Below are positions 1-46,199 of a stretch of DNA of 46,199 nucleotides, one piece after another. The first letter of the stretch is position 1; every line of letters starts with the position of its first letter. The translations under genes and the position numbers were made by a program. This DNA is from Spartobacteria bacterium (GTDB lineage: Bacteria; Verrucomicrobiota; Verrucomicrobiia; Chthoniobacterales; UBA10450). The DNA is taken from contig PLCN01000008.1 of NCBI GenBank assembly GCA_003134785.1, forward strand, positions 1 through 46,199, given 5' to 3'. The notes below the pieces were generated by a model, which did not search any database, was not told the DNA's origin, and saw only the letters and a list, made by a program, of their open reading frames with translations.

Positions 1-2639
1 CTACTCACGGCAGTAGGTGTGCCACTGATTGTTCCTGTGGCGGGATCAAACGATAAGCCGTCCGGGAGCGCGGGAGAGATGGTGAAACTAACCGCAGTCC
101 CTCCGTCGTTGGCCGGCATAATGGTGGAGATAGGCTGGCCTTCGATGTAGGTGAAAGAATTACTCGAGTAGGTGATGCCAGGCGGATCACCCACCACGAT
201 CATGGTGGAGTTACTCTGGATGCCGTTGGTGAAGACGGTGACCAGGGCCGGCCCAAAAGGAAAGCCGATCACGGGAGATGACTGGAAGGCGGTGTCCGAC
301 CAACCTGCGCTCGGACTAACCGAAAGAGTAACGGTCTGGTTGCTATCAAGGCTGCTCAACTGGACGATAGGATAGTTGCTCGACGAATCCGGTGTGCCGC
401 CATCGGAAGCACTGGAGATGCCCTGGAAGCGGAGACCTGTGAGAGAAAGGTTTGCCGCGGGACGAAGCGGAGAAGTAGCTGTGCTAATTTGCGGTTGCCA
501 GGCGGGCAAAAAGCCGAGGCCGACGTTATATACCTCGGCATTGGCCAAAGGGTCGTTCGCCGCGTTCTCACCTCCGGCGACCAGAACGCTCCCGTTAGGC
601 AGGAGTTTCGCCATTAAAGAAGTGCGGGCAGTACTCATGCTGCCGGTTGAGAGCCAAATCCCACCCCCAATCGCCGGGTCATACAGCTCTGCGCTCGAAA
701 GAAGAGCGCCATTATAGCCGCCCGCAACCAGCACCTTCCCATTGGCCAGTAACGTCGCCGCGTAACTGCTGCGCGGATTGTTCATGCTGGTGGTGACGCT
801 CCAAGTTTCACTCGCCGGATCATACAGCTCTGCGCTCGAAAGAAAACCGACGTTGCTACCGAAGCCGCCCGCAACCAGCGCCTTCCCATTGGGCAGCAAC
901 GTCGCCGTATGGAGGTAACGCCCGGCGGACAAGCTGCCCGTCTGGCTCCACTTTCCGCTACCCGGATCGTATAGCTCTGCGCTCGCCAAGGAGCCGTTAT
1001 CGTCGCCGCCCGCCGCGACCAACACCTTCCCGCTTGGAAGTAGTGTCGCCGTCGCCAAGGCGCGCTTAAAGATCAGACTACCGGTCGTGCTCCAAGTCCC
1101 AGTGGCCGGATCATACAGCTCTGCGCTCGGAAGAAAAGCGCCGCTATTATCTTCGCCCCCCGCGACCAACACCCTCCCATTCGGCAGCAACGTCGCCGTA
1201 TGCTGGATACGCGCGGCGGCCAGACTACCGGTCGCGTTCCAGCTCCCACTCGCTGGGTCATACAGCTCCGCGCTAGACACAGAAACACCAAAAGAGTTGT
1301 TACCGCCTGCCACCAGCACCTTCCCATTCGGCAATAGCGTCGCCGTGTGCAAGACGCGAGCGGTCGTCATGTCGCCGGTTGCATTCCAGCTTCCGCTCGC
1401 CGGATCGTAGAGCTCCGCACTCTTTACCGCAACAAAATTGGAGGCGTTACCGCCTGCCACGAGCACCTTCCCATTCGGCAATAATGTCGCGACATAAGCT
1501 ATCCGCGCGGCCGTCATGTTGCCGGTCGCGCTCCAGCTTCCGTTCGCCGGATCATATCGTTCTGCGCTGGCGAGTGGGTTGCCATCATAACCACCGGTGA
1601 CCAGCACCGCTCCGTTTGGCAGGATCGTTGCCGTGTGATCTTCGCGAGCGGTCACCATGCCGCCAGTCGCGCTCCAGTTCGTACCACTTTCGGGGTCATA
1701 AATCTCCGAGGCCGCCAAAAAGGCGCCATTGTAACCACCCGCCACCAGCACCGTTCCGTTTGGCAGCAGGGTCGCCGTATGATCGCTGCGCGCGCGGATC
1801 ATGCTCCCTGTCGCGCCCCACATCCCGCTCGCGGGATCATACAGTTCCGCGCTCGCCAATTCATTAAGTGTGTTATCAGTCCCGCCCGCAATCAGCACCT
1901 TTCCACTGGGGAGCAGCGTCGCTGATTGAGCGTAGCGCGCGGCCGCTAGGCTGCCCGTCGTGCTCCAAGTGCCGCTGGCCGGATTATAAAGCTCCGCGCT
2001 GGCCAGAGTGTTTGCGCCCTTACCTCCCGCGACCAATACCGTTCCGCCCTGCAATAGTGTCGCCGTGTGAGAGTAGCGGGCCGTCGCCAGACTCCCGGTC
2101 GCGCTCCAGGTCCCGCTGGCCGGATCATATAGTTCCGCGGTGGCCAAGGAACCAGCGTTATAACCGCCCACCACCAGCACCTTTCCGTTGGGGAGCAGCG
2201 TGGCCGTGTGGGAATAACGCGCGGTCGCCAGGCTCCCGGTCGCGCTCCAGGTCCCCGTCGCCGGATCATATAGCTCCGCGCTCGCCAGGGAGCCATTGTT
2301 ATAACCGCCCACCACCAGCACCTTTCCGCTGGGGAGCAGCGTGGCCGTGTGAGCGTCGCGGCCAGTTGCCAGATTGCCGGTTGTGCTCCAAGTCCCACCC
2401 GCCGGATCATAAAGCTCCGCGCTCGCCAGGGAGCCACCGTTATAACCACCCGCCACCAACACCTTCCCGTTGGATAACAGCGTCGCCGTCTGATGTGTCC
2501 GGGCCGTGTTCATAACGCCGGCGCGGGAAAAAGTTAGAGGCGTGGCCATGCTGGCAGGCAGCGCCAGCATACAGAAACCAGCACATACGAGCATGGCAAG
2601 CGGCAGCCGGCTGCCACTGATGATGGCAAATTTTTTCAT
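1..2639 (-). CDS. Secreted kelch-repeat protein with Ig-like C-terminal part (3' end outside window)
   Basis: The frame is open from an ATG at 2639 to the left edge, at least 879 codons, so the C-terminus is missing. Residues 1-32 form a signal peptide (MKKFAIISG start, hydrophobic core, ending LPASMA), so the protein is exported. About 14 kelch-type repeats of roughly 48 residues follow, each with a core like HTATLLPNGKVLVAGG and a second half like SAELYDPATGTWS; they should fold as one or two beta-propellers. After about residue 680 the repeats end and an Ig-like region follows, with LPDGLSFDPATGTISGTP near the window edge, typical of putative Ig (He_PIG) domains. Kelch propellers of this kind usually bind proteins or glycans outside the cell; the ligand is unknown. 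Frame continuity was checked by translation through all repeats and no frameshift was found. Confidence 0.88.
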   Translation of the reverse strand, partial: MKKFAIISGSRLPLAMLVCAGFCMLALPASMATPLTFSRAGVMNTARTHQTATLLSNGKVLVAGGYNGGSLASAELYDPAGGTWSTTGNLATGRDAHTATLLPSGKVLVVGGYNNGSLASAELYDPATGTWSATGSLATARYSHTATLLPNGKVLVVGGYNAGSLATAELYDPASGTWSATGSLATARYSHTATLLQGGTVLVAGGKGANTLASAELYNPASGTWSTTGSLAAARYAQSATLLPSGKVLIAGGTDNTLNELASAELYDPASGMWGATGSMIRARSDHTATLLPNGTVLVAGGYNGAFLAASEIYDPESGTNWSATGGMVTAREDHTATILPNGAVLVTGGYDGNPLASAERYDPANGSWSATGNMTAARIAYVATLLPNGKVLVAGGNASNFVAVKSAELYDPASGSWNATGDMTTARVLHTATLLPNGKVLVAGGNNSFGVSVSSAELYDPASGSWNATGSLAAARIQHTATLLPNGRVLVAGGEDNSGAFLPSAELYDPATGTWSTTGSLIFKRALATATLLPSGKVLVAAGGDDNGSLASAELYDPGSGKWSQTGSLSAGRYLHTATLLPNGKALVAGGFGSNVGFLSSAELYDPASETWSVTTSMNNPRSSYAATLLANGKVLVAGGYNGALLSSAELYDPAIGGGIWLSTGSMSTARTSLMAKLLPNGSVLVAGGENAANDPLANAEVYNVGLGFLPAWQPQISTATSPLRPAANLSLTGLRFQGISSASDGGTPDSSSNYPIVQLSSLDSNQTVTLSVSPSAGWSDTAFQSSPVIGFPFGPALVTVFTNGIQSNSTMIVVGDPPGITYSSNSFTYIEGQPISTIMPANDGGTAVSFTISPALPDGLSFDPATGTISGTPTAVS

Positions 2640-2746
2640 GAGTATCCCTTTGCGCGTCGCGAATGACGGTCGCGCTCGCGCTTTCCCCGGCACAAGCTTG
2701 AGGCGATGGACAGCAGCGCCTAACAAAACTTGATGCGGTGTATCTT

Positions 2747-3026
2747 TTACCGCAGGGCGGTATCTGTGTAAAGAATATCCCGGACAGCCGCAGGGAAATG
2801 ACGCGCAGAACGTTCCGCCGCGAGCATCTCGCGCAAGAGATCGAGCATCCGCGCGGGAATTTCGAACGCATCGGTTTCGGACTTTGGCGGAGCGCCGGTG
2901 AGCGCATACCACAGCGTCGCGCCTAACGAGTGGATGTCCGAGCACGCGTCGAGCGAGCGCGACGGGCGCATCGAGATTGATATCGCGCGCTCGATAAGTC
3001 ACACCCATCGCGCCACGTCCGAGCAG
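2747..3026 (-). pseudogene. Remnant of a Ser/Thr protein kinase, internally deleted
   Basis: Reading leftward from 3026, one frame gives RLLGRGAMGVTYRARDINLD, the glycine-rich ATP loop of a bacterial Ser/Thr kinase. Near 2960 it jumps to another frame that gives SDIHSLGATLWYALTGAPP, the kinase subdomain IX region, and then LLREMLAAERSARHFPAAV before a stop at 2747. The catalytic loop (HRD), the DFG motif and most of the C-lobe are absent, and the two pieces are out of frame, so this cannot be a working kinase. The usual spacer between the LTGAPP and LLREML motifs is also shortened. The N-terminal side is cut off by the inverted-repeat element at 3033-3141. It is read here as a gene destroyed by at least one large deletion. 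Confidence 0.72.
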
Positions 3027-3143: not shown

Positions 3144-6053
3144 TTACTCGGCAAACGCTTCCATCGGCGGACAGGAGCACATCAGATTCCGATCGCCGTA
3201 AACGCTGTCGATGCGGGCGACGGCGGGCCAGAATTTGTACTCGCGGGTCCACGAGGCCGGATACGCCGCTTGTTCTCGCGAATACGGCCGGTCCCACTTA
3301 TCTGAGATCACTTGCTGCGCAGTGTGCGGCGCGTTTTTCAAAACGTTGTTTTGCCGATCGGCTTTTCCGGATGCCACCGCCTCGATCTCCGCATGAATCG
3401 AAATCATCGAGTCGCAAAAACGATCCAACTCTGCTTTCGATTCGCTCTCGGTCGGCTCGACCATCATCGTTCCCGCGACCGGCCACGAAACCGTCGGAGC
3501 ATGAAATCCGTAATCCATCAAGCGCTTGGCCACGTCCTCCACTTCCACGCCCGCGCTTTTCCACTGACGCAAATCAAGAATGCATTCATGCGCAACAAGC
3601 CCACGTTTCCCTTTGAAAAGAACCGGAAAATATCGATCGAGCCGCTTCGCGATGTAGTTCGCATTCAGGATCGCGATCTTGGTCGCTTCGGTCAGTCCCT
3701 CGCCGCCCATCATGCGGATGTACATCCACGAGATGGTGAGAATGCTCGCGCTGCCGTAGGGAGCGGCGGTCACGGGACCGACGCCATTTTGGATTTTAGA
3801 TTTTGGATTTTGGATTGAAGATAGGGCCGGTAAGAATTTTGCGAGATGCGCGGCGACGCCGATCGGTCCCACGCCGGGGCCGCCGCCGCCATGTGGAATG
3901 CAAAAGGTCTTGTGCAAATTCAAATGGCAAACATCCGCGCCCATGTCGCCGGGACGGCAAAGTCCGACCTGCGCGTTCATGTTCGCGCCGTCCATGTAGA
4001 CCTGGCCGCCATGCGAGTGCACGATCTCGCAAATCTCGCGGATGGTGGTTTCAAAAACGCCGTGCGTAGACGGGTAGGTGACCATGAGCGCGGCCAGATC
4101 GTCTTTGTGTGTGTCGGCTTTTGCGCGCAGATCCGCCAGATCAATGTCGCCATCTTTCAGGCACGCCACGGAGACAACTTTGAAACCGGCCATGACCGCG
4201 CTTGCGGGGTTCGTGCCGTGCGCGGAAGTCGGGATGAGGCAAACCTTGCGATGCGCTTCGCCGCACGACGCGTGATATTCGCGGATCGCGAGCAGTCCCG
4301 CGTATTCGCCTTGCGAACCGGCATTCGGCTGGAGTGCGACCGCCGCGAAGCCGGTGATTTCGGCGAGCCAATTCTCGAGTTGCTCACACATCTCGCGGTA
4401 ACCGGCGGTTTGCTCGTCGGACGCGAACGGATGCAGCTTGGCGAATTCCGGCCACGAAATTGGAAACATCTCTGCCGTCGCATTCAATTTCATCGTGCAA
4501 GACCCGAGCGGGATCATCGAAGTCGTGAGCGAGAGATCGCGCGATTCTAGCCGGCGCAGATAGCGCAGCATTTCTGTCTCCGTGTGGTGCGTGTTGAAAA
4601 CAGGGTGGGTGAGGAAAGCAGAATTGCGGATTGCGGATTGCGGAAACCGGAAAGTTTCTGCGCTCGATTCGCTTTCAATTTCGGCGCCGAAGATTTGGCA
4701 GATGTTCGCGAGATCGTTTTCGCTTGTTGTTTCATCGAGGGAGATGCCGACCGCATCTTCATCGAGCCGTCGCAGATTTATTCCGGCCTTGGCCGCATCA
4801 GCCATAACGGCGGCCGCATTTGCGACGCGCAGGGTATCGAAAAAATCATTGTGCGTGATCTTGAATCCAGCCGCTCGCAAAGAATTCGCGAGTTGACTCG
4901 TTAGGCGATGAACGCGTTCCGCGATGGCGCGCAGTCCGCGTGGTCCGTGGTAAACCGCGTACATCGAGGCGATCACGGCGAGGAGCACTTGCGCGGTGCA
5001 GATGTTACTGGTGGCCTTGTCGCGGCGAATGTGTTGCTCGCGAGTCTGAAGCGCTAGGCGATATCCCGGTCGCCCGGTGGCATCGTGAGAAACGCCGACG
5101 AGCCGGCCCGCCATGTGGCGCTTGTAAGCGTCGCGCGTCGCGAAGTAGGCGGCATGCGGTCCGCCAAATCCGAGCGGGACGCCAAAACGTTGCGTGCTGC
5201 CCACAGCTACGTCCGCGCCGATTTCGCCGGGTGGTCTCAAGAGAGTGAGCGCGAGAATATCGGCCGCCATCACTAGCAGGGCGCCCGCGTCATGCGCCGC
5301 TTTGGCGAAGGATTCGTAATCGAAAATTGCACCGTCCGTGGCAGGATATTGCACCAGCGCGCCGAAGACCGTGTCGTCGAATTTGAATTGCGAAAAGTCT
5401 CCGACCACAACCTCGATGCCGAGAGGTTTCGCGCGAGTCTGCACGACTTCGATAGTTTGCGGATGGCAATTGTCCGCGACAAAGAAGGCCTTCCGTCCGG
5501 ACACGGCTGCGTGGCAGAGCGTCATCGCTTCGGCGGCGGCGGTGGCTTCATCGAGCAATGAGGCGTTGGCAATGTCGAGCGCCGTCAGGTCGGTGACCAT
5601 CGTCTGGAAATTCAAGAGCGCTTCGAGACGGCCTTGCGCGATCTCCGCCTGATAAGGCGTGTAGGCGGTGTACCAACCGGGATTCTCGAGAATGTTCCGC
5701 TGAATGACGGGAGGCGTAATGGTGTCGGAATAACCGGCGCCGATGAAAGAGCGCGCGACGATGTTTTTCCGCGCGAGCTGATGCAGCTCCGCGAGCGCGT
5801 CCCACTCGGACGCTGCGTCAGGCAAGTTCAACGGCTGATCGAGACGAATGTTTTTTGGAACGGTGGCGTCGATCAACGCGTCGAGATTTTCGAATTCAAT
5901 CTCCTTCAGCATCGCGGCGCGAGCCTGCTGATTCGGGCCGATGTGACGGCGGGCGAAGGAATCGACCCGATCCTTTTCTCGAGCGGGGGACATGCGTTTC
6001 TGGCGTCCTGGTTCAGCAGTTTTCGCGGGCGAGTCCATTTCGGCTGTGGGCAT
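3144..6053 (-). CDS. gcvP: Glycine dehydrogenase (aminomethyl-transferring), P-protein
   Basis: This is the PLP-dependent P-protein of the glycine cleavage system, which decarboxylates glycine and passes the aminomethyl group to lipoyl-GcvH. At 969 aa it matches the single-chain form (about 950-960 aa). The N-terminal half starts with FARRHIGPN, the family hallmark. The C-terminal half has [17 protein letters not shown] with the PLP lysine at about K715. The ATG at 6053 gives a 20-residue extension; an internal Met ([10 protein letters not shown]) may be the real start. Two short stretches, at about residues 468-479 and 743-756, are encoded by simple DNA repeats and sit where the family has variable loops. 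gcvT and gcvH are not nearby, so the rest of the system must lie elsewhere. Confidence 0.96.
3785..3820. repeat. In-frame simple repeat inside gcvP (attttgga type)
   Basis: A run of ATTTTGGA-like units lies inside gcvP and on the coding strand reads as [10 protein letters not shown]. It falls in the loop after the PLP-lysine region, where homologues have unrelated sequence. It stays in frame, so the enzyme is probably not destroyed. Its base composition is far more AT-rich than the gene around it. Confidence 0.6.
4617..4648. repeat. In-frame simple repeat inside gcvP (attgcgg type)
   Basis: Tandem ATTGCGG units lie inside gcvP and read as [10 protein letters not shown] on the coding strand. 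They fall in the linker before the [15 protein letters not shown] motif of the C-terminal half. Like the repeat at 3785 it is in frame and lies in a loop that tolerates length change. Confidence 0.58.
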
Positions 6054-6284: not shown

Positions 6285-6986
6285 TCACGACGACCGGAAA
6301 CAAATGGTTTCTCCGGGCCACGGATGCATGATTTCAGTGCGCCCAATAACTTTGAATCCGGCGTTTTCAAATACGTGAACCAGCTCATCAATGTTCTTCC
6401 AAAAAAAGCTTTCGAAAAAGCCTGGGTTGATGCCCTGGTCGCGGCCTTGCACTGCTTCGACAATGAATAGCCCATCCGGCTGGAGCACCTTCAAGACTTC
6501 CTTCGCGATGCGGTCGATATCGAAAGCGTGATCTAGCGAATTTGTATAAACCACATCGATCGAGTTTGGCGCGTACTGCAAGTCGTGAAAATCGCCCTGG
6601 ACGACGTATCGATTTCCTTCTCCGGGATTGAGGTCGAGCCCAATCGCGAAGCAGCCCAGATCGAGGAACGCTTTCACTTCAGTGCCGATCCGCGCGCCGA
6701 GACAGAGCACGGTGCGGCCGTGCCAAGCGATATCGAGTGCAGTCAAACGCTCCCGAAGCGCCTTGCGGAATTCGCTGTCGTAATTTCCGAAATCGTGCGT
6801 CTCGAGCTTCGCCTTTTGGTGCTCGAGATATGCTTCGTACGAATGGTAACGGCGCGTCTGGAGCGCATCAGTCTTTGCGTTCCACTCTTGGCCGTATCTG
6901 CGGAACAATGCGCGCTTTCGGAGGGAACGCTTGAGCCTGGTGAGAAACCGGAGCGGATCAAAAACACGTTTGTTTGCGCCGCTCAT
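6285..6986 (-). CDS. Class I SAM-dependent methyltransferase
   Basis: This 233-aa protein has a basic N-terminus, then the Rossmann motif I variant TVLCLGARIGTEVKAFLDLG at about residues 90-110, an acidic ribose-binding position in IGLDLNPGE, and the post-motif region DVVYTNSLDHAFDIDRIAKE followed by LKVLQPDGLFIVE, typical of Methyltransf_11 proteins. It would transfer a methyl group from SAM; the acceptor cannot be told from sequence. The ATG at 6986 is the natural start. It lies 28 bp upstream (to the left) of ilvA's stop on the same strand and could share its transcript. Small-molecule or glycan methylation is likelier than RNA methylation, given similar enzymes in polysaccharide loci. Confidence 0.8.
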   Translation of the reverse strand: MSGANKRVFDPLRFLTRLKRSLRKRALFRRYGQEWNAKTDALQTRRYHSYEAYLEHQKAKLETHDFGNYDSEFRKALRERLTALDIAWHGRTVLCLGARIGTEVKAFLDLGCFAIGLDLNPGEGNRYVVQGDFHDLQYAPNSIDVVYTNSLDHAFDIDRIAKEVLKVLQPDGLFIVEAVQGRDQGINPGFFESFFWKNIDELVHVFENAGFKVIGRTEIMHPWPGETICFRSS

Positions 6987-40033: not shown

Positions 40034-40332
40034 GCCGATTACGTCACCCGACGTTTCAACGCATCTTCGGCCGGGCTGAAGTGAGCCCGTGAGGCTGGAC
40101 CTTCGCTGGGACACCGCTTAACGCGATCTCCAGATCCAACTGGAGCCCCGAGTCAGCTGGAAGGATGGAGTTGAGAGTATTTGGTTGAGTGTTGAGAGAT
40201 TCAGAAAGGCAAAAAGGACGCCTGCCTTCTCTCAACCACCAACTCTCAACTCTCAACTCGCAACTTCCAGCCTGGTTCCTGGTTTCTGCATCGAGCTGGA
40301 TTGCAGTGAATTCAAAAACCAGCGCCAAGAAT
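40034..40332 (+). promoter_or_regulatory. Leader of collagen-like gene 1, copied almost intact before gene 2
   Basis: Two conserved blocks are shared with the region before gene 2: GCCGATTACGTCACCCGACG at 40034 (ACGTC/GACGT hairpin) and, from 40113, ACCGCTTAACGCGATCTCCA with a CTCCAG/CTGGAG hairpin. Between them is a stretch that is unrelated in the two copies but in each includes its own hairpin (here CGGGCT/AGCCCG at 40072-40089). The 3' part has a run of CTCTCAAC units that pair with upstream GTTGAGAG units. No promoter boxes were assigned. Confidence 0.5.
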
Positions 40333-42909
40333 ATGAAACCTCATCTCAAAACCATACTGCTCGTTGCCGGCCTGTTGTCCTTTTCGCCTTTCGCTTTCGC
40401 AAAGGCGCCGGCAGTCGATAGGGCAGTAGCCTCGCATGATTCCACGATCGACGCTGGGACGACAGCAACAAGTTTGGCCAATATTTCAACACGCATTTCT
40501 GTTGGGACGGGAGACAGTATCGGAATAGCTGGATTCATCATCCGAAGCGATTCGGGAGCACCGGCTGGGGCGACCAAACGCGTCATCATTCTCGGGCGTG
40601 GTCCTTCGCTTCAAGTCAACGGCACACCAGTGTCCGGGCGTTTGATGGATCCCACCCTCGAGCTGCATGATATCAACGGCACGCTCATCACATCCAATGA
40701 CAACTGGATGGACGCATCCAATGCCAATGATGTCTTGACGACTGGCCTGGCGCCGAGCGATCCACGGGAAGCGGCCATTCTCATTACTCTGGCATCCGAC
40801 GCCAATTACACCGCCATTATTGCCGGGAAAAACAGCAGCACCGGTATCGGAATAGTGGAGATGTACGATTTGGACCCGCCTAGTAGCATCACGGGCGCCA
40901 CGGGACCTACCGGCCCGACCGGTCCAACCGGCGCTACTGGACCGACGGGAACCAATGGAACAAACGGCGTCAATGGCTCGACTGGCCCGACGGGTCCCAC
41001 TGGCACTGCAGGAACGAATGGAACAAACGGCGCCACCGGAGCTACCGGTCCTACTGGCACTGCAGGCACAAACGGAACGAATGGAACCAATGGTGCGACT
41101 GGCCCGACCGGATCTCAAGGTGTGCAAGGAAACACGGGCGCGACCGGCGCCACTGGCACTGCAGGAACGAATGGAACAAATGGCGCCACCGGAGCTACCG
41201 GACCCAGTGGCACTGCAGGAACTAACGGAACAAACGGAACGAATGGAACCAATGGTGCAACTGGCCCGACCGGCGCCACGGGAACCGATAACGAAGACCT
41301 GGGCAACGGCAACACGGCTTCGGGTAATGGGGCTCTCATCAGCCTCACAACCGGCAACCAAAACACGGCCATGGGTTTTAATGCGCTTGCCAGCAACACA
41401 AGCGGCAACGACAACACGGCCACTGGTTATCAAGCACTCGCGGACAACACAACCGGCTTCAACAACACGGCCACTGGTCGTGAAGCGCTCGTGAACAACA
41501 CAACCGGCTCCCAAAACACGGCCAACGGTTTTAATGCACTCTTTAACAACACAACCGGCAACAGCAACACGGCCACTGGTGAAAATGCGCTCGTGGACAA
41601 CACAACCGGCGGCAGCAACACGGCCAATGGTTTTCAAGCGCTCCTTAGCAACACAACCGGCGGCAACAACACGGCCAATGGTACTGAAGCGCTCTCTAAC
41701 AACACAACCGGCAACAACAACACGGCTAATGGTTATGAAGCGCTCTTTGGCAACACAACCGCAGGTCAGAACGTGGCTATTGGGAATAACGCTTTGTTTA
41801 CACAATCATTCAGCAATGGGGGTGTTGCATGGAGCAGCAACAATGTGGCTGTAGGCTATCAGGCGCTTAATTCCAACCAGCCAACCTCCACCATCACCGG
41901 CATTGACAATACGGCTCTTGGAACCGAAGCGCTCCAAAACAACACAACCGGCACCGAAAACACGGCCACTGGCCTTCAAGCGCTCCAAAGCAACACAACC
42001 GCAGGTCAGAACGTGGCTATTGGGAATAACGCTTTGTCGACCCAATCTTTCAGCAATGGCGGCGTTGCATGGAGCAGCAACAATGTGGCGGTGGGACATC
42101 TGGCGCTTAATTCCAACCAGCCAACCTCCACCATCACCGGCATTGACAATACGGCTCTTGGAACCGATGCGCTCCAAAAAAACACAACCGGCAACGACAA
42201 CACGGCCACTGGTGTTAATGCACTGGTTCACAACACAACCGGCGACGACAACACCGCCAATGGTTATGAAACGCTCATTAACAGCACAACCGGCAGCAAC
42301 AACATCGCATTGGGCTTCGACGCCGGCTTCAATCTCATTACGGGCAGCAATAACATCGACATCGGCAACCAAGGTGCTAACCCCGATGATAGTACCATCC
42401 GCATCGGCGGGACGCAGACAGCTACCTTCATCGCCGGCATCGCGAATGCAACGGTCACAGGCTCGGCAGTCGTTATCACTTCGACAGGTCAGCTTGGCGT
42501 CCTAACCTCGTCCGCGCGCTTCAAGGATGCGATCGAGCCAATGGGTAACTCAAGCGAAGCGCTCCTTTCGCTGCGGCCTGTTACCTTCCACTACAAAAAG
42601 AGCATCGACCCGAACAGCATCCCGCAGTTCGGCCTGGTCGCTGAGGAAGTGGAAAAAGTGAACCCCGATCTGGTGGCTCGCGATGCCGAAGGAAAAGTCT
42701 TCACCGTCCGCTACGAGGCAGTAAACGCCATGTTGCTGAATGAATTCCTCAAGGAGCACAAGAAGGTCGAGGACTTGGAAGCGACCGTTGCGCAGCAGCA
42801 AAAGGATTTCACTGCGCGTCTCAACGAGCTGGGCGCGAAAATTCAGAACGTGAGCGACAAGGTGGAATTGAGTAAGCCTGCGCCGCAAGTGGTCGGCAAC
42901 AATCAATAG
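40333..42909 (+). CDS. Collagen-like fibre protein 1 with beta-roll and S74 intramolecular chaperone
   Basis: 858 aa from the ATG at 40333; the open frame extends to 40189 but that part is simple repeat DNA. A signal peptide ([17 protein letters not shown]) is followed by an N-terminal domain shared with the next two genes ([20 protein letters not shown], then [20 protein letters not shown], then [11 protein letters not shown]). A Gly-X-Y collagen-like stalk of about 130 residues, rich in GPT, GAT and GTN triplets, follows at about 188-318. Next come about 18 repeats of 17 residues ([17 protein letters not shown]), which look like the YadA-type left-handed beta-roll. The C-terminus is a peptidase S74 chaperone ([14 protein letters not shown]726, R729, K731), expected to trimerise the fibre and then cut itself off. 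Confidence 0.85.
41752..42231 (+). repeat. 240-bp tandem duplication inside collagen-like gene 1
   Basis: Block 41752-41991 is repeated at 41992-42231 with only scattered differences. Each block encodes [15 protein letters not shown], then [17 protein letters not shown] and [11 protein letters not shown]. The 240-bp period (80 aa) keeps the frame. It lengthens the beta-roll by about five units and can change copy number by slippage or unequal recombination. Confidence 0.8.
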
Positions 42910-43222
42910 CTGCCAATCGCAAAATTAAGCTCGACATTTCGTTAGGCGACGGTTTAAAAGCAACGCCGATTACGTCACCCGACGTTTCAACCCCGAAAGC
43001 GTTCGGGGCTGAGATACCGCTTAACGCGATCTCCAGATCCAACTGGAGCCCCGAGTCAGGCTGGAAGGATGGAGTTGAGAGTATTTGGTTGAGTGTTGAG
43101 AGATTCAGAAAGGCAAAAAGGACGCCTGCCTTCTCTCAACCACCAACTCTCAACTTCCAGCCTGGTTCATGGTTTCTGCATCGAGCTGGATTGCAGTGAA
43201 TTCAAAAACCAGCGCCAAGAAT
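42910..43222 (+). promoter_or_regulatory. Leader of collagen-like gene 2, copy of the gene 1 leader
   Basis: The gap between genes 1 and 2 holds no gene. From 42965 to 42991 it repeats the first block of the gene 1 leader, and from 43016 to the ATG it repeats the second block almost base for base, with a 13-base shorter CTCTCAAC run. The middle is different: a CCCCGAA/TTCGGGG hairpin with AGCG loop at 42991-43008. This hairpin could also help end transcription of gene 1, although no T-run follows it. Confidence 0.5.
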
Positions 43223-44866
43223 ATGAAACCTCATCTCAAAACCATACTGCTCGTTGCCGGCCTGTTGTCCTTTTCGCCTTTCGCTTTCGCAAAGGCGCCG
43301 GCAGTCGATAAGGCGGTAGCCGCGCTTGATGCCACGAGCGGCGACGCCGGATCTACGTCGACGAGGTTGGCTAATATTTCGGCCCGCATTGCTGTGGGGA
43401 CGGGAGACAATGTCGGAATAGGTGGATTCATCATCCGAAGCGATTCGGGAGCAGGGGCTGGGGCGACCAAACGCGTCATCATCCTCGGGCTTGGTCCTTC
43501 GCTTCAAGTCAACGGCACACCGGTGTCCGGGCGCTTGATGGATCCCACCCTCGAGCTGCGTGACATCAATGGCACGCTCATCAGCTCCAATGACAACTGG
43601 ATGGACGCAGCCAACGCCAGTGATATTCAGGCCACTGGGCTGGCGCCGGGCGATCCACGGGAAGCGGCCATTCTCATCACTCTGGCATCGAACGCGAATT
43701 ACAGCGCCATTATTGCCGGGAAAAATAACACCACGGGTATCGGATTAGTGGAGATGTACGATTTGGACCCGCCCAGCAGCACCACGGGCGCCACGGGACC
43801 TACCGGACCGACTGGAGCTACTGGAGCTACTGGAGCAACTGGTGCTACTGGATCGCCGGGAACAAATGGCACCAACGGAACCAATGGTGCGACTGGCCCG
43901 ACCGGATCTCAAGGTGTGCAAGGAAACACGGGCGCGACCGGCGCCACTGGCACTGCGGGAACTAACGGAACAAACGGTAGCAATGGTACCAATGGAGCGA
44001 CTGGTGCGACTGGCCCCACGGGTTCTGTGGCCGCTAGCCCGCCCGGCATGGTGCTCATTCCCGCTGGTGCGTTCACGATGGGGGACAGTCTGGATGGCGA
44101 GAGCGATGCCATACCCACGGTTAGCGTGACGGTGTCAGCGTTTTACATGGACGTGAACCTGGTGAGCTTGAGTCAATGGCAGTCGGCTTATTATTGGGCG
44201 ACGAGCAACGGGTATGACTTTGTGAATGCCGGTGCGGGGAAGTTGGTGAATAATCCGGTGCAGACGGTGGATTGGTATAACGTGGTGAAGTGGTGCAATG
44301 CTCGGTCGGAGCAAGCAGGAAAAACTCCGGTGTATTACACGGATGCGGGGTTGACGGCGGTGTACAGAAGCGGGGAAGTGCCGGTTTTTGTGAATTGGGC
44401 GGCTGTAGGCTACCGGTTACCGACGGAAGCGGAGTGGGAGAAGGCGGCGCGGGGAGGTTTGAGCGGGCAACGGTTTCCTTGGGGCAACACCATCACGGAA
44501 AATCTGGCCAACTACTACGGGAACACCGCCTTGAGCTACGATTTGGGACCGAACGGCTATAACGCCATTGGGAGTATCGGGGGAACCTCACCTGCCACGA
44601 GTCCGGTGGGATCCTTTGCGACGAACGGGTATGGGCTTTACGACATGGCTGGGAATGTTTTCGAGTGGTGTTATGATTGGTATGGGACGCCGTATGCTGG
44701 AGGCAGCGACCCACATGGGCCGGCTACGGGCTCGATCCGCGTGGTCCGCGGCGGCTATTGGGGCAGCTACGCCAGCCTCGCGCGTTGCGCCGATCGGAAC
44801 GGCAGCGACCCGGGCGTCGCCAGCGGCGATGTTGGTTTCCGGGTTGTCCTGGCCCCAGGTCCGTGA
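43223..44866 (+). CDS. Collagen-like fibre protein 2 with FGE/C-type-lectin-fold head
   Basis: 547 aa from the ATG at 43223. The signal peptide and N-terminal domain match gene 1 closely. A shorter Gly-X-Y stalk (about residues 188-268) leads to an FGE-sulfatase-type domain from about 272 to the end: [54 protein letters not shown] and [20 protein letters not shown], closing [11 protein letters not shown]. In formylglycine-generating enzymes two cysteines five residues apart bind copper; here the second (C522) is kept but the first is Ala517, so enzyme activity is unlikely and a binding role is preferred. The last 45 codons have a sharply different third-base pattern from the rest. Confidence 0.85.
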
Positions 44867-45043
44867 GCTGGCCGGAGCAGGCGAGGCGGAGCGAGGGACG
44901 AGCGCAGCCTGACTGCGCAGAGGCGGCGTAGCGTGTCATTGAATCAAACTCGGCGTGCATGAAAAAGTACGGTGAATTAGTGCTCAACGTCTATCGGAAG
45001 AACTGAAATACACCGGCCAAACGCCTGCGACGACAACATCGAG
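44867..45043 (+). other. Post-VR region with short hairpin downstream of the FGE head
   Basis: No gene was seen. 35 bases after the stop codon lies GCGCAG-CCTGA-CTGCGC (44902-44918), a 6-bp stem with a 5-base loop. In known diversity-generating retroelements a short hairpin just after the variable region helps retrohoming. Here the match is only in position and form. Confidence 0.35.
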
Positions 45044-45498: not shown

Positions 45499-46199
45499 AA
45501 AGTTCATCATTTCAAAACTATTCTACTCATTAGCGCTCTGTCGTCCTTTTCGCATTTCGCTTTCGCAAAGGCGCCGGCAGTCGATAAGGCGGTAGCCGCG
45601 CCTGATGCCACGATCGGCGACACCGCAGCGACAGCAACAACGTTGGCCAATATCTCAACCAGACTCGCTGTGGGGACGGGAGACAGTATCGGAATAGCTG
45701 GATTCATCATCCGAGGCGATTCGGCAGCAGGGGCTGGGGCGACCAAACGCGTCATCATCCTCGGGCGTGGTCCTTCGCTTCAAGTCAACGGCACACCGGT
45801 GTCCGGGCGCTTGATGGATCCCACCCTTGAGCTGCATGACATCAACGGCACGCTCATCAGCTCCAATGACAACTGGATGGACGCGTCCAATGCCAATGAT
45901 ATTCAGGCCACTGGCCTGGCGCCGAGCGATCCACGGGAAGCGGCCATTCTTATCACTCTGGCATCCAACGCCAATTACAGCGCCATCATTGCCGGGAAAA
46001 ATAACACCACGGGTATCGGAATAGTGGAGATGTATGATCTGGACCCGCCCAGCAGCAACACGGGCGCCACGGGACCTACTGGCCCAACCGGCCCTACCGG
46101 TCCAACCGGAGCTACGGGGTTAGCGGGAACAAATGGAACTAACGGCGTCAATGGCTCGACCGGCCCGACGGGTCCCACTGGCACTGCAGGAACGAATGG
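45496..46199 (+). CDS. Collagen-like fibre protein 3 (3' end outside window)
   Basis: At least 234 codons from the ATG at 45496. The signal peptide differs slightly from genes 1 and 2 ([17 protein letters not shown]), but the N-terminal domain is close to theirs ([56 protein letters not shown]). The Gly-X-Y stalk begins at about residue 188 ([15 protein letters not shown]) and runs to the window edge. The head type is unknown. Its leader is unrelated to those of genes 1 and 2. Confidence 0.85.

Follow-up and report, generated by a model that had tools for sequence, protein, structure and literature searches.

The DNA analysed here, the window, is the entire 46,199-bp contig C5 of the genome of a Spartobacteria bacterium from soil (G000; 4.39 Mb in 25 contigs, 97 % complete). 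Its gene at 43223–44866 very probably encodes a collagen-stalk protein with a variable head of the type diversified by diversity-generating retroelements (DGRs). The head is homologous to the target proteins of DGRs and shows the mutational signature seen in them. A DGR was sought in the window and in the rest of its own genome and was not found; since neither the reverse transcriptase (RT) nor the template was recovered from G000, the gene stands as a DGR target with no DGR in sight, either orphaned or remotely served. Below, G001 and G002 are genomes of the same genus, and L-numbers are loci with relatives.

Adenine-patterned variability of the head

A gene of G001 carries a head with 90 % amino-acid identity to the window head, and head and 3′ flank together are 93 % identical in DNA over 982 bp, the similarity continuing beyond the stop codon. 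Within the variable region (VR; last 32 codons, 44747–44842) the two sequences differ at 23 of 96 nt and 13 of 32 residues, against 35 of 747 nt and 16 of 249 residues in the head outside the VR and 5 of 102 nt in the flank beyond the gene. With the template of a complete DGR at L095 as a key, the window and G001 differ at 21 of the 33 adenine columns and at 2 of the 63 others (Fisher test, 8e-11). Fifteen columns of this template are AAC or AAT (AAY) codons; at these the third base is C or T in 15/15 cases in the window and 14/15 in G001, compared with 116 of 241 codons across the rest of the window head. The head thus combines a C-terminal VR with an array of AAY-derived codons, as DGR targets do. 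Set directly against the L095 template, the window VR differs at 22/33 adenines and 8/63 other bases, the templates at hand for this comparison all being foreign.

As a control, another FGE-domain gene of G000 (FGE, formylglycine-generating enzyme) was compared with relatives in G001, G002, G003, G005 and G007. The equivalent stretch was less diverged than the rest in 7/7 comparisons; of the 10 FGE matches of that kind in other genomes, L041, L044 and L045 were left out. This control informs on the place of change and not on its amount, because the control genes are overall far more diverged than the window/G001 pair.

Relatives with template and reverse transcriptase

Head relatives occur at 50 loci of named genome contigs; those closer to the window head belong to other metagenome-assembled genomes (MAGs) of Verrucomicrobiota. 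L095 holds a complete DGR, with a secreted target, bAvd (PF22296, E=2.7e-21), an RT (RVT_1, E=1.1e-15) and a template with NNN at the variable sites; its target differs from its own template at 15/33 adenines and 0/63 other bases. L082 has an adjacent RT, 41 % identical to that of L095, and a template from which the target differs at 21/32 adenines and no other base, provided that one template base is skipped. The L082 VR (6736–6830) is one base shorter than its template, with all remaining differences at template adenines, and the reading frame of the target is therefore shifted. A weaker template/VR pair occurs at L113 (11/24 adenines and 5/72 other bases differ), where no RT was found on the short contig.

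The L075 target is 75 % identical in the head and is directly followed by a truncated Avd (4153–4408) with 92 % identity to the L095 Avd over 72 residues; an RT was not detected at this locus, which is a decayed DGR. Among the 50 loci, many of them on short contigs, RT-like sequence occurs in 4 and Avd-like sequence in 4. A strict template scan of 61 loci (L074–L134) returned L095 and two pairs in L121, and missed L082 and L113. A pattern scan of 387 genomes of the phylum gave 6 with a match, the own genome included; the match in G153 looks like an AAC array of the template type.

Fold and cysteine positions of the head

The first-pass annotation of this gene, made from the letters alone, had proposed a leader, a shared N-terminal domain, a Gly-X-Y stalk and an FGE-type domain in one chain. 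This layout is borne out by Pfam, by a count of 27 triplets and, for the leader, by eye. FGE-sulfatase PF03781 spans the whole head (residues 273–542, E=1.5e-49). An AlphaFold prediction from a 39-row alignment gave a best model with a predicted local distance difference test score (pLDDT) of 80.2 and a predicted template modelling score of 0.85; the other four models have pLDDT 67–73, and the prediction is weak near residues 165–188. In a Foldseek search with the head, TvpA (PDB 2y3c) ranks first (E 3.6e-21). Comparison with VIA places TvpA at Z 27.1 (root-mean-square deviation 2.8 over 237 residues), CarF at Z 26.2, FGE enzymes at up to Z 23.6 and the DGR protein Mtd at Z 12.2. The C-type-lectin fold of the FGE/TvpA kind proposed earlier is accordingly present in the predicted model.

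The positions of the FGE cysteine pair are occupied by Ala517 and Cys522, as was first noted. An alignment of 39 heads shows Ala at 517 in 32 and Cys at 522 in 23; no head carries both cysteines. These columns are taken to be the copper cysteines of FGE from known FGE motifs and from the PDB alignment. An intact FGE active site was looked for in the window head and not found, in agreement with the earlier view that the protein is not an enzyme; because the cysteine pair is missing, the head probably serves as a binding tip rather than as an FGE. The same annotation had cited DGR proteins as a mere fold analogy. The likeness of fold stands, but the head is itself a homologue of DGR targets with an adenine signature, which had been missed, and what was described as a fixed lectin-like tip is for that reason reread as a retroelement-diversified one.

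Search for the DGR machinery

The L095 RT was used as a query against 30 genomes, including 26 of the 83 genomes of the family; 7 had a match. Strong matches occurred only in G083 (the genome of L095), G084 (L082) and G086 (L110), which serve as positive controls, and further weak ones in G024 (E=1.7e-9), G033 and G039. In the genus genomes G000–G007 the query found nothing but a 663-aa RT of G000 (C24:51943–52419, L032; E=2.5e-6). That RT was rejected as a DGR component; by eye it reads as a defence RT, presumably so given the HsdS-like gene that it adjoins. RVT_1 was detected at one place each in 3/8 genus genomes. The RTs of G001 (C38) and G002 (C25) were likewise rejected because the L095 RT matches neither of them, and from their motifs both are presumed to be non-DGR enzymes.

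A template-pattern search of G000 and G001 found the VR alone, and recovered the templates of G083 and G084 as controls (G001 is listed twice in this search, as G001 and G085). Of the two parts that define a complete DGR, an RT in the genome and a template repeat, neither was found in the 97 % complete G000 assembly. RT and template having been tested for and not found, the locus is not classed as a DGR. Cis-acting DGR sites would be expected in the 3′ flank of a VR; none was identified in 44867–44968.

Exchange of heads on a common stalk

In three genomes the same stalk bears different heads, and comparison shows that stalk genes have exchanged them. In the G002 gene the N-domain and the start of the stalk have 90.5 % DNA identity to the window over 443 bp, and from the stop codon on the identity is 91.7 % over 1,286 bp; between these flanks the head has only about 40 % protein identity to the window head. 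The end of the G002 head is also rich in NNC codons and fits none of the templates compared. At G001:C15 the stalk bears a different head, without a Pfam match and presumably C1q/BclA-like as judged by eye, and a 104-bp leftover of the 3′ end of the FGE head lies downstream. The 3′ flank is also shared with G002, the similarity extending to window position 46145, and a remnant of it persists at G001:C15.

Across 101 head-matching open reading frames (ORFs; loci from L032 on), only the rows of G000, G001 and G002 contained the N-domain or at least 10 triplets. In the 30 of 49 other loci that were read upstream of the head, no Gly-X-Y run exceeded 12 residues; 4 of these loci reach the contig end.

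The head was found in 2 of 83 family genomes (E<=1e-30), which suggests that it was probably gained sideways. No near donor emerged: the best phage places have 32 % identity and the best plasmid places 37 %, and loci with most of the head in IMG/VR reach 45–55 % (best 80 of 125 relatives). The VR-core pattern was met in 14 stretches of viral contigs, none with a template for the window VR. In viral loci examined for collagen-DGR fusions (69 loci, L135–L203, and 19 pattern-hit loci, L234–L252) the template scan flagged the collagen repeats themselves and one other pair (L203).

Competing explanations

Several observations weigh against a DGR-type head. The L095 template, although it comes from another genome, was chosen as the key after the window/G001 VR alignment was known. 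The sister comparison is a single pair, and the control genes are as diverged as stated above. The VR of G001 exceeds that of the window by two codons, and one AAY column is TGG in G001, which a change of the A in AAC or AAT alone cannot give. By fold CarF ties with TvpA, and a sequence-only search of the PDB ranks solved FGE enzymes (E 1.5e-32) above TvpA (1.9e-24). Neither a cognate template nor a DGR-type RT was found in G000 or G001 by RT, template-pattern or DNA-similarity searches.

The absent machinery would also be expected if the head were hypervariable without any DGR, through ordinary positive selection or recombination at a binding face, and the recombination of heads as cassettes fits such a process. 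The pattern of change does not: the third base is retained, with changes at 1/15 AAY columns, the non-adenine columns are avoided, and relatives possess the template. This explanation is accordingly improbable. That the protein is a working FGE on a stalk is scarcely credible. PF03781 covers the whole head and FGE enzymes are the best sequence matches in the PDB, but the Ala517/Cys522 pair, the lack of any aligned head with both cysteines, and the fact that the variable stretch is the very one holding the cysteine positions argue against catalysis.

Within the favoured reading, a DGR-type variable head, two sub-cases differ in whether rewriting continues. There is about an even chance that the diversifying DGR is gone, or that the head arrived already diversified, and that its present face is fixed. 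No DGR-type RT was found in the 8 genus genomes, of which the three that carry heads are 97, 93 and 98 % complete; L075 offers the precedent of a target kept beside a truncated Avd, the probable sideways gain of the head is compatible with arrival in finished form, and the available text of a study of Treponema denticola describes isolates that have targets and lack RT or template (PMC4891356). Against a fixed face stands the strong difference between the G000 and G001 VRs, whose flanks are about 95 % identical; diversification or VR exchange must therefore have followed the parting of the two copies. This same difference between sister genomes favours the other sub-case, in which the VR is still being rewritten in trans by an RT and template located on a plasmid, a phage or unassembled DNA. 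Assembled bins may lack mobile elements, and remote DGR targets occur in cyanobacteria according to the portions available of PMC7517822. Such an element was not found in G000 or G001 by RT, template pattern or DNA similarity, and the phage and plasmid collections hold no near relative of the head, so that active rewriting in trans is a serious possibility that falls short of an even chance.

Proposed mechanism and significance

The gene product would be a secreted surface display protein, held at the cell surface by its N-terminal beta sandwich. If a collagen triple helix forms, the Gly-X-Y part would be a rod of about 23 nm (from the customary rise per residue) that carries a DGR-type variable protein of TvpA/FGE fold as its head. 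About 15 head codons, AAC or AAT in the templates of relatives, bear the signature of rewriting, presumably by adenine-directed mutagenic retrohoming, which would give each lineage a new binding face. The retroelement, outside the assembled genome, may have been lost after diversification or may act from an unbinned element. The protein probably binds variable partners (other cells, glycans or phages, for example), perhaps multivalently and with the partners changing.

Tentatively, soil Verrucomicrobiota may possess a modular display system in which tandem collagen stalks carry exchangeable heads and a trans-acting DGR rewrites one of these, giving a multivalent receptor with templated variability; with similar reserve, that system might be likened to a collectin layout joined to the variability of an adaptive receptor. 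If so, bacterial collagen rods carry binding tips diversified by a retroelement; the rods would hold the tips away from the cell and, if trimerizing, make them multivalent. Sister genomes with DGR-type targets and without a visible DGR would provide a clean case for telling frozen receptors from receptors served by elements that metagenome binning overlooks.

Stalk, N-terminal domain and gene neighbourhood

The features of the gene and its surroundings are collected in Table 1. The leader (MKPH...SPFAFA) is hydrophobic. The stalk matches Collagen PF01391 (E=9.5e-14), best over residues 188–243, and its Gly-X-Y triplets are uninterrupted, as in collagen-like proteins; the final triplet, GSV, sits at the junction with the head.

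Table 1. Positions in the window of the stalk gene, its parts and its neighbours
Feature	Position	Strand	Basis
Whole gene, collagen-stalk protein with probable DGR-type variable head	43223..44866	+	547 aa ORF, Pfam
Leader, residues 1–23, signal-peptide-like	43223..43291	+	by eye
N-domain, residues 45–186, beta sandwich	43355..43780	+	sequence matches, fold comparison
Gly-X-Y stalk, 27 triplets, residues 189–269	43787..44029	+	triplet count, Pfam
FGE-type C-type-lectin head, PF03781, residues 273–542	44039..44848	+	Pfam, structure model, fold search
VR, residues 509–540, 32 codons	44747..44842	+	G001 comparison, L095 template
Non-coding 3′ flank common to window and G001 (5 differences/102 nt)	44867..44968	+	DNA comparison
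Sister gene: like leader, N-domain and stalk (44 triplets), then repeat-rich head and S74 chaperone domain	40333..42909	+	Pfam, comparison
Second sister gene, stalk interrupted by contig end	45496..46199	+	Pfam

The N-domain is present in both neighbouring genes and, among the matches listed, of 206 in the own genome, underlies all that are non-self. Neither Pfam (up to E=1) nor, for this part of the protein, NCBIfam (up to E=0.1) yields a match. Fold matches are weak (pre-peptidase C-terminal, collagen-binding and GOLD domains; best Z 9.4), and comparison with viral structures gave nothing beyond weak matches. The domain is an uncatalogued beta sandwich and may serve as a surface-sorting module. 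It is frequently a doublet. Of 45 copies read, with own-genome loci L005–L031 among the sources, 19 finish at the stop codon or 1 residue from it.

Upstream of both complete stalk genes lie about 230 bp of near-identical DNA (40104–40332 and 42994–43222), so that the two look like a tandem duplication. At the other end of the window, a minus-strand ORF (3–3008) contains tandem repeats of 141–147 bp (666–2504).

Comparison with known systems

TvpA of T. denticola has, like the window head, an FGE-type C-type-lectin fold with a C-terminal variable region; the matched chain has no collagen stalk, and TvpA is part of a DGR, whereas none was found for the window gene. The L095 system (Verrucomicrobia subdivision 3 MAG, CAIXBQ010000125.1), the source of the template used above, has a homologous secreted head, but its target has a short N-terminal part with at most one Gly-X-Y triplet and, unlike the window gene, adjoins a complete DGR. 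In the available text, the remote or leftover targets of cyanobacteria (PMC7517822) and T. denticola (PMC4891356) resemble the window gene in standing apart from, or without, RT and template; there they are linked to templates in the same genome or in kin, and a collagen stalk is unmentioned. Cyanobacterial conflict systems are reported to include FGE-type domains that are DGR targets (PMC7159879). No collagen-stalked DGR target turned up in the literature searched, which included few subscription papers; in the text available, the word ‘collagen’ is confined to reference lists in PMC7517822, PMC7159879 and PMC8195603 and absent from PMC8144416 and PMC4372165. DGR targets are already described as modular in PMC8144416, a C-terminal lectin fold being joined there to N-terminal parts of various kinds.

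The stalk itself matches bacterial collagen-like proteins in NCBIfam. Such proteins, for instance BclA, Scl and Lcl, likewise consist of a Gly-X-Y rod with a globular C-terminal head; their heads are not known as DGR targets. Animal collectins join a collagen stalk to a tip of C-type-lectin fold. The convergence with them that was first proposed for this gene holds for the layout only: the window head stems from the FGE/DGR family, and its diversity appears to be templated.
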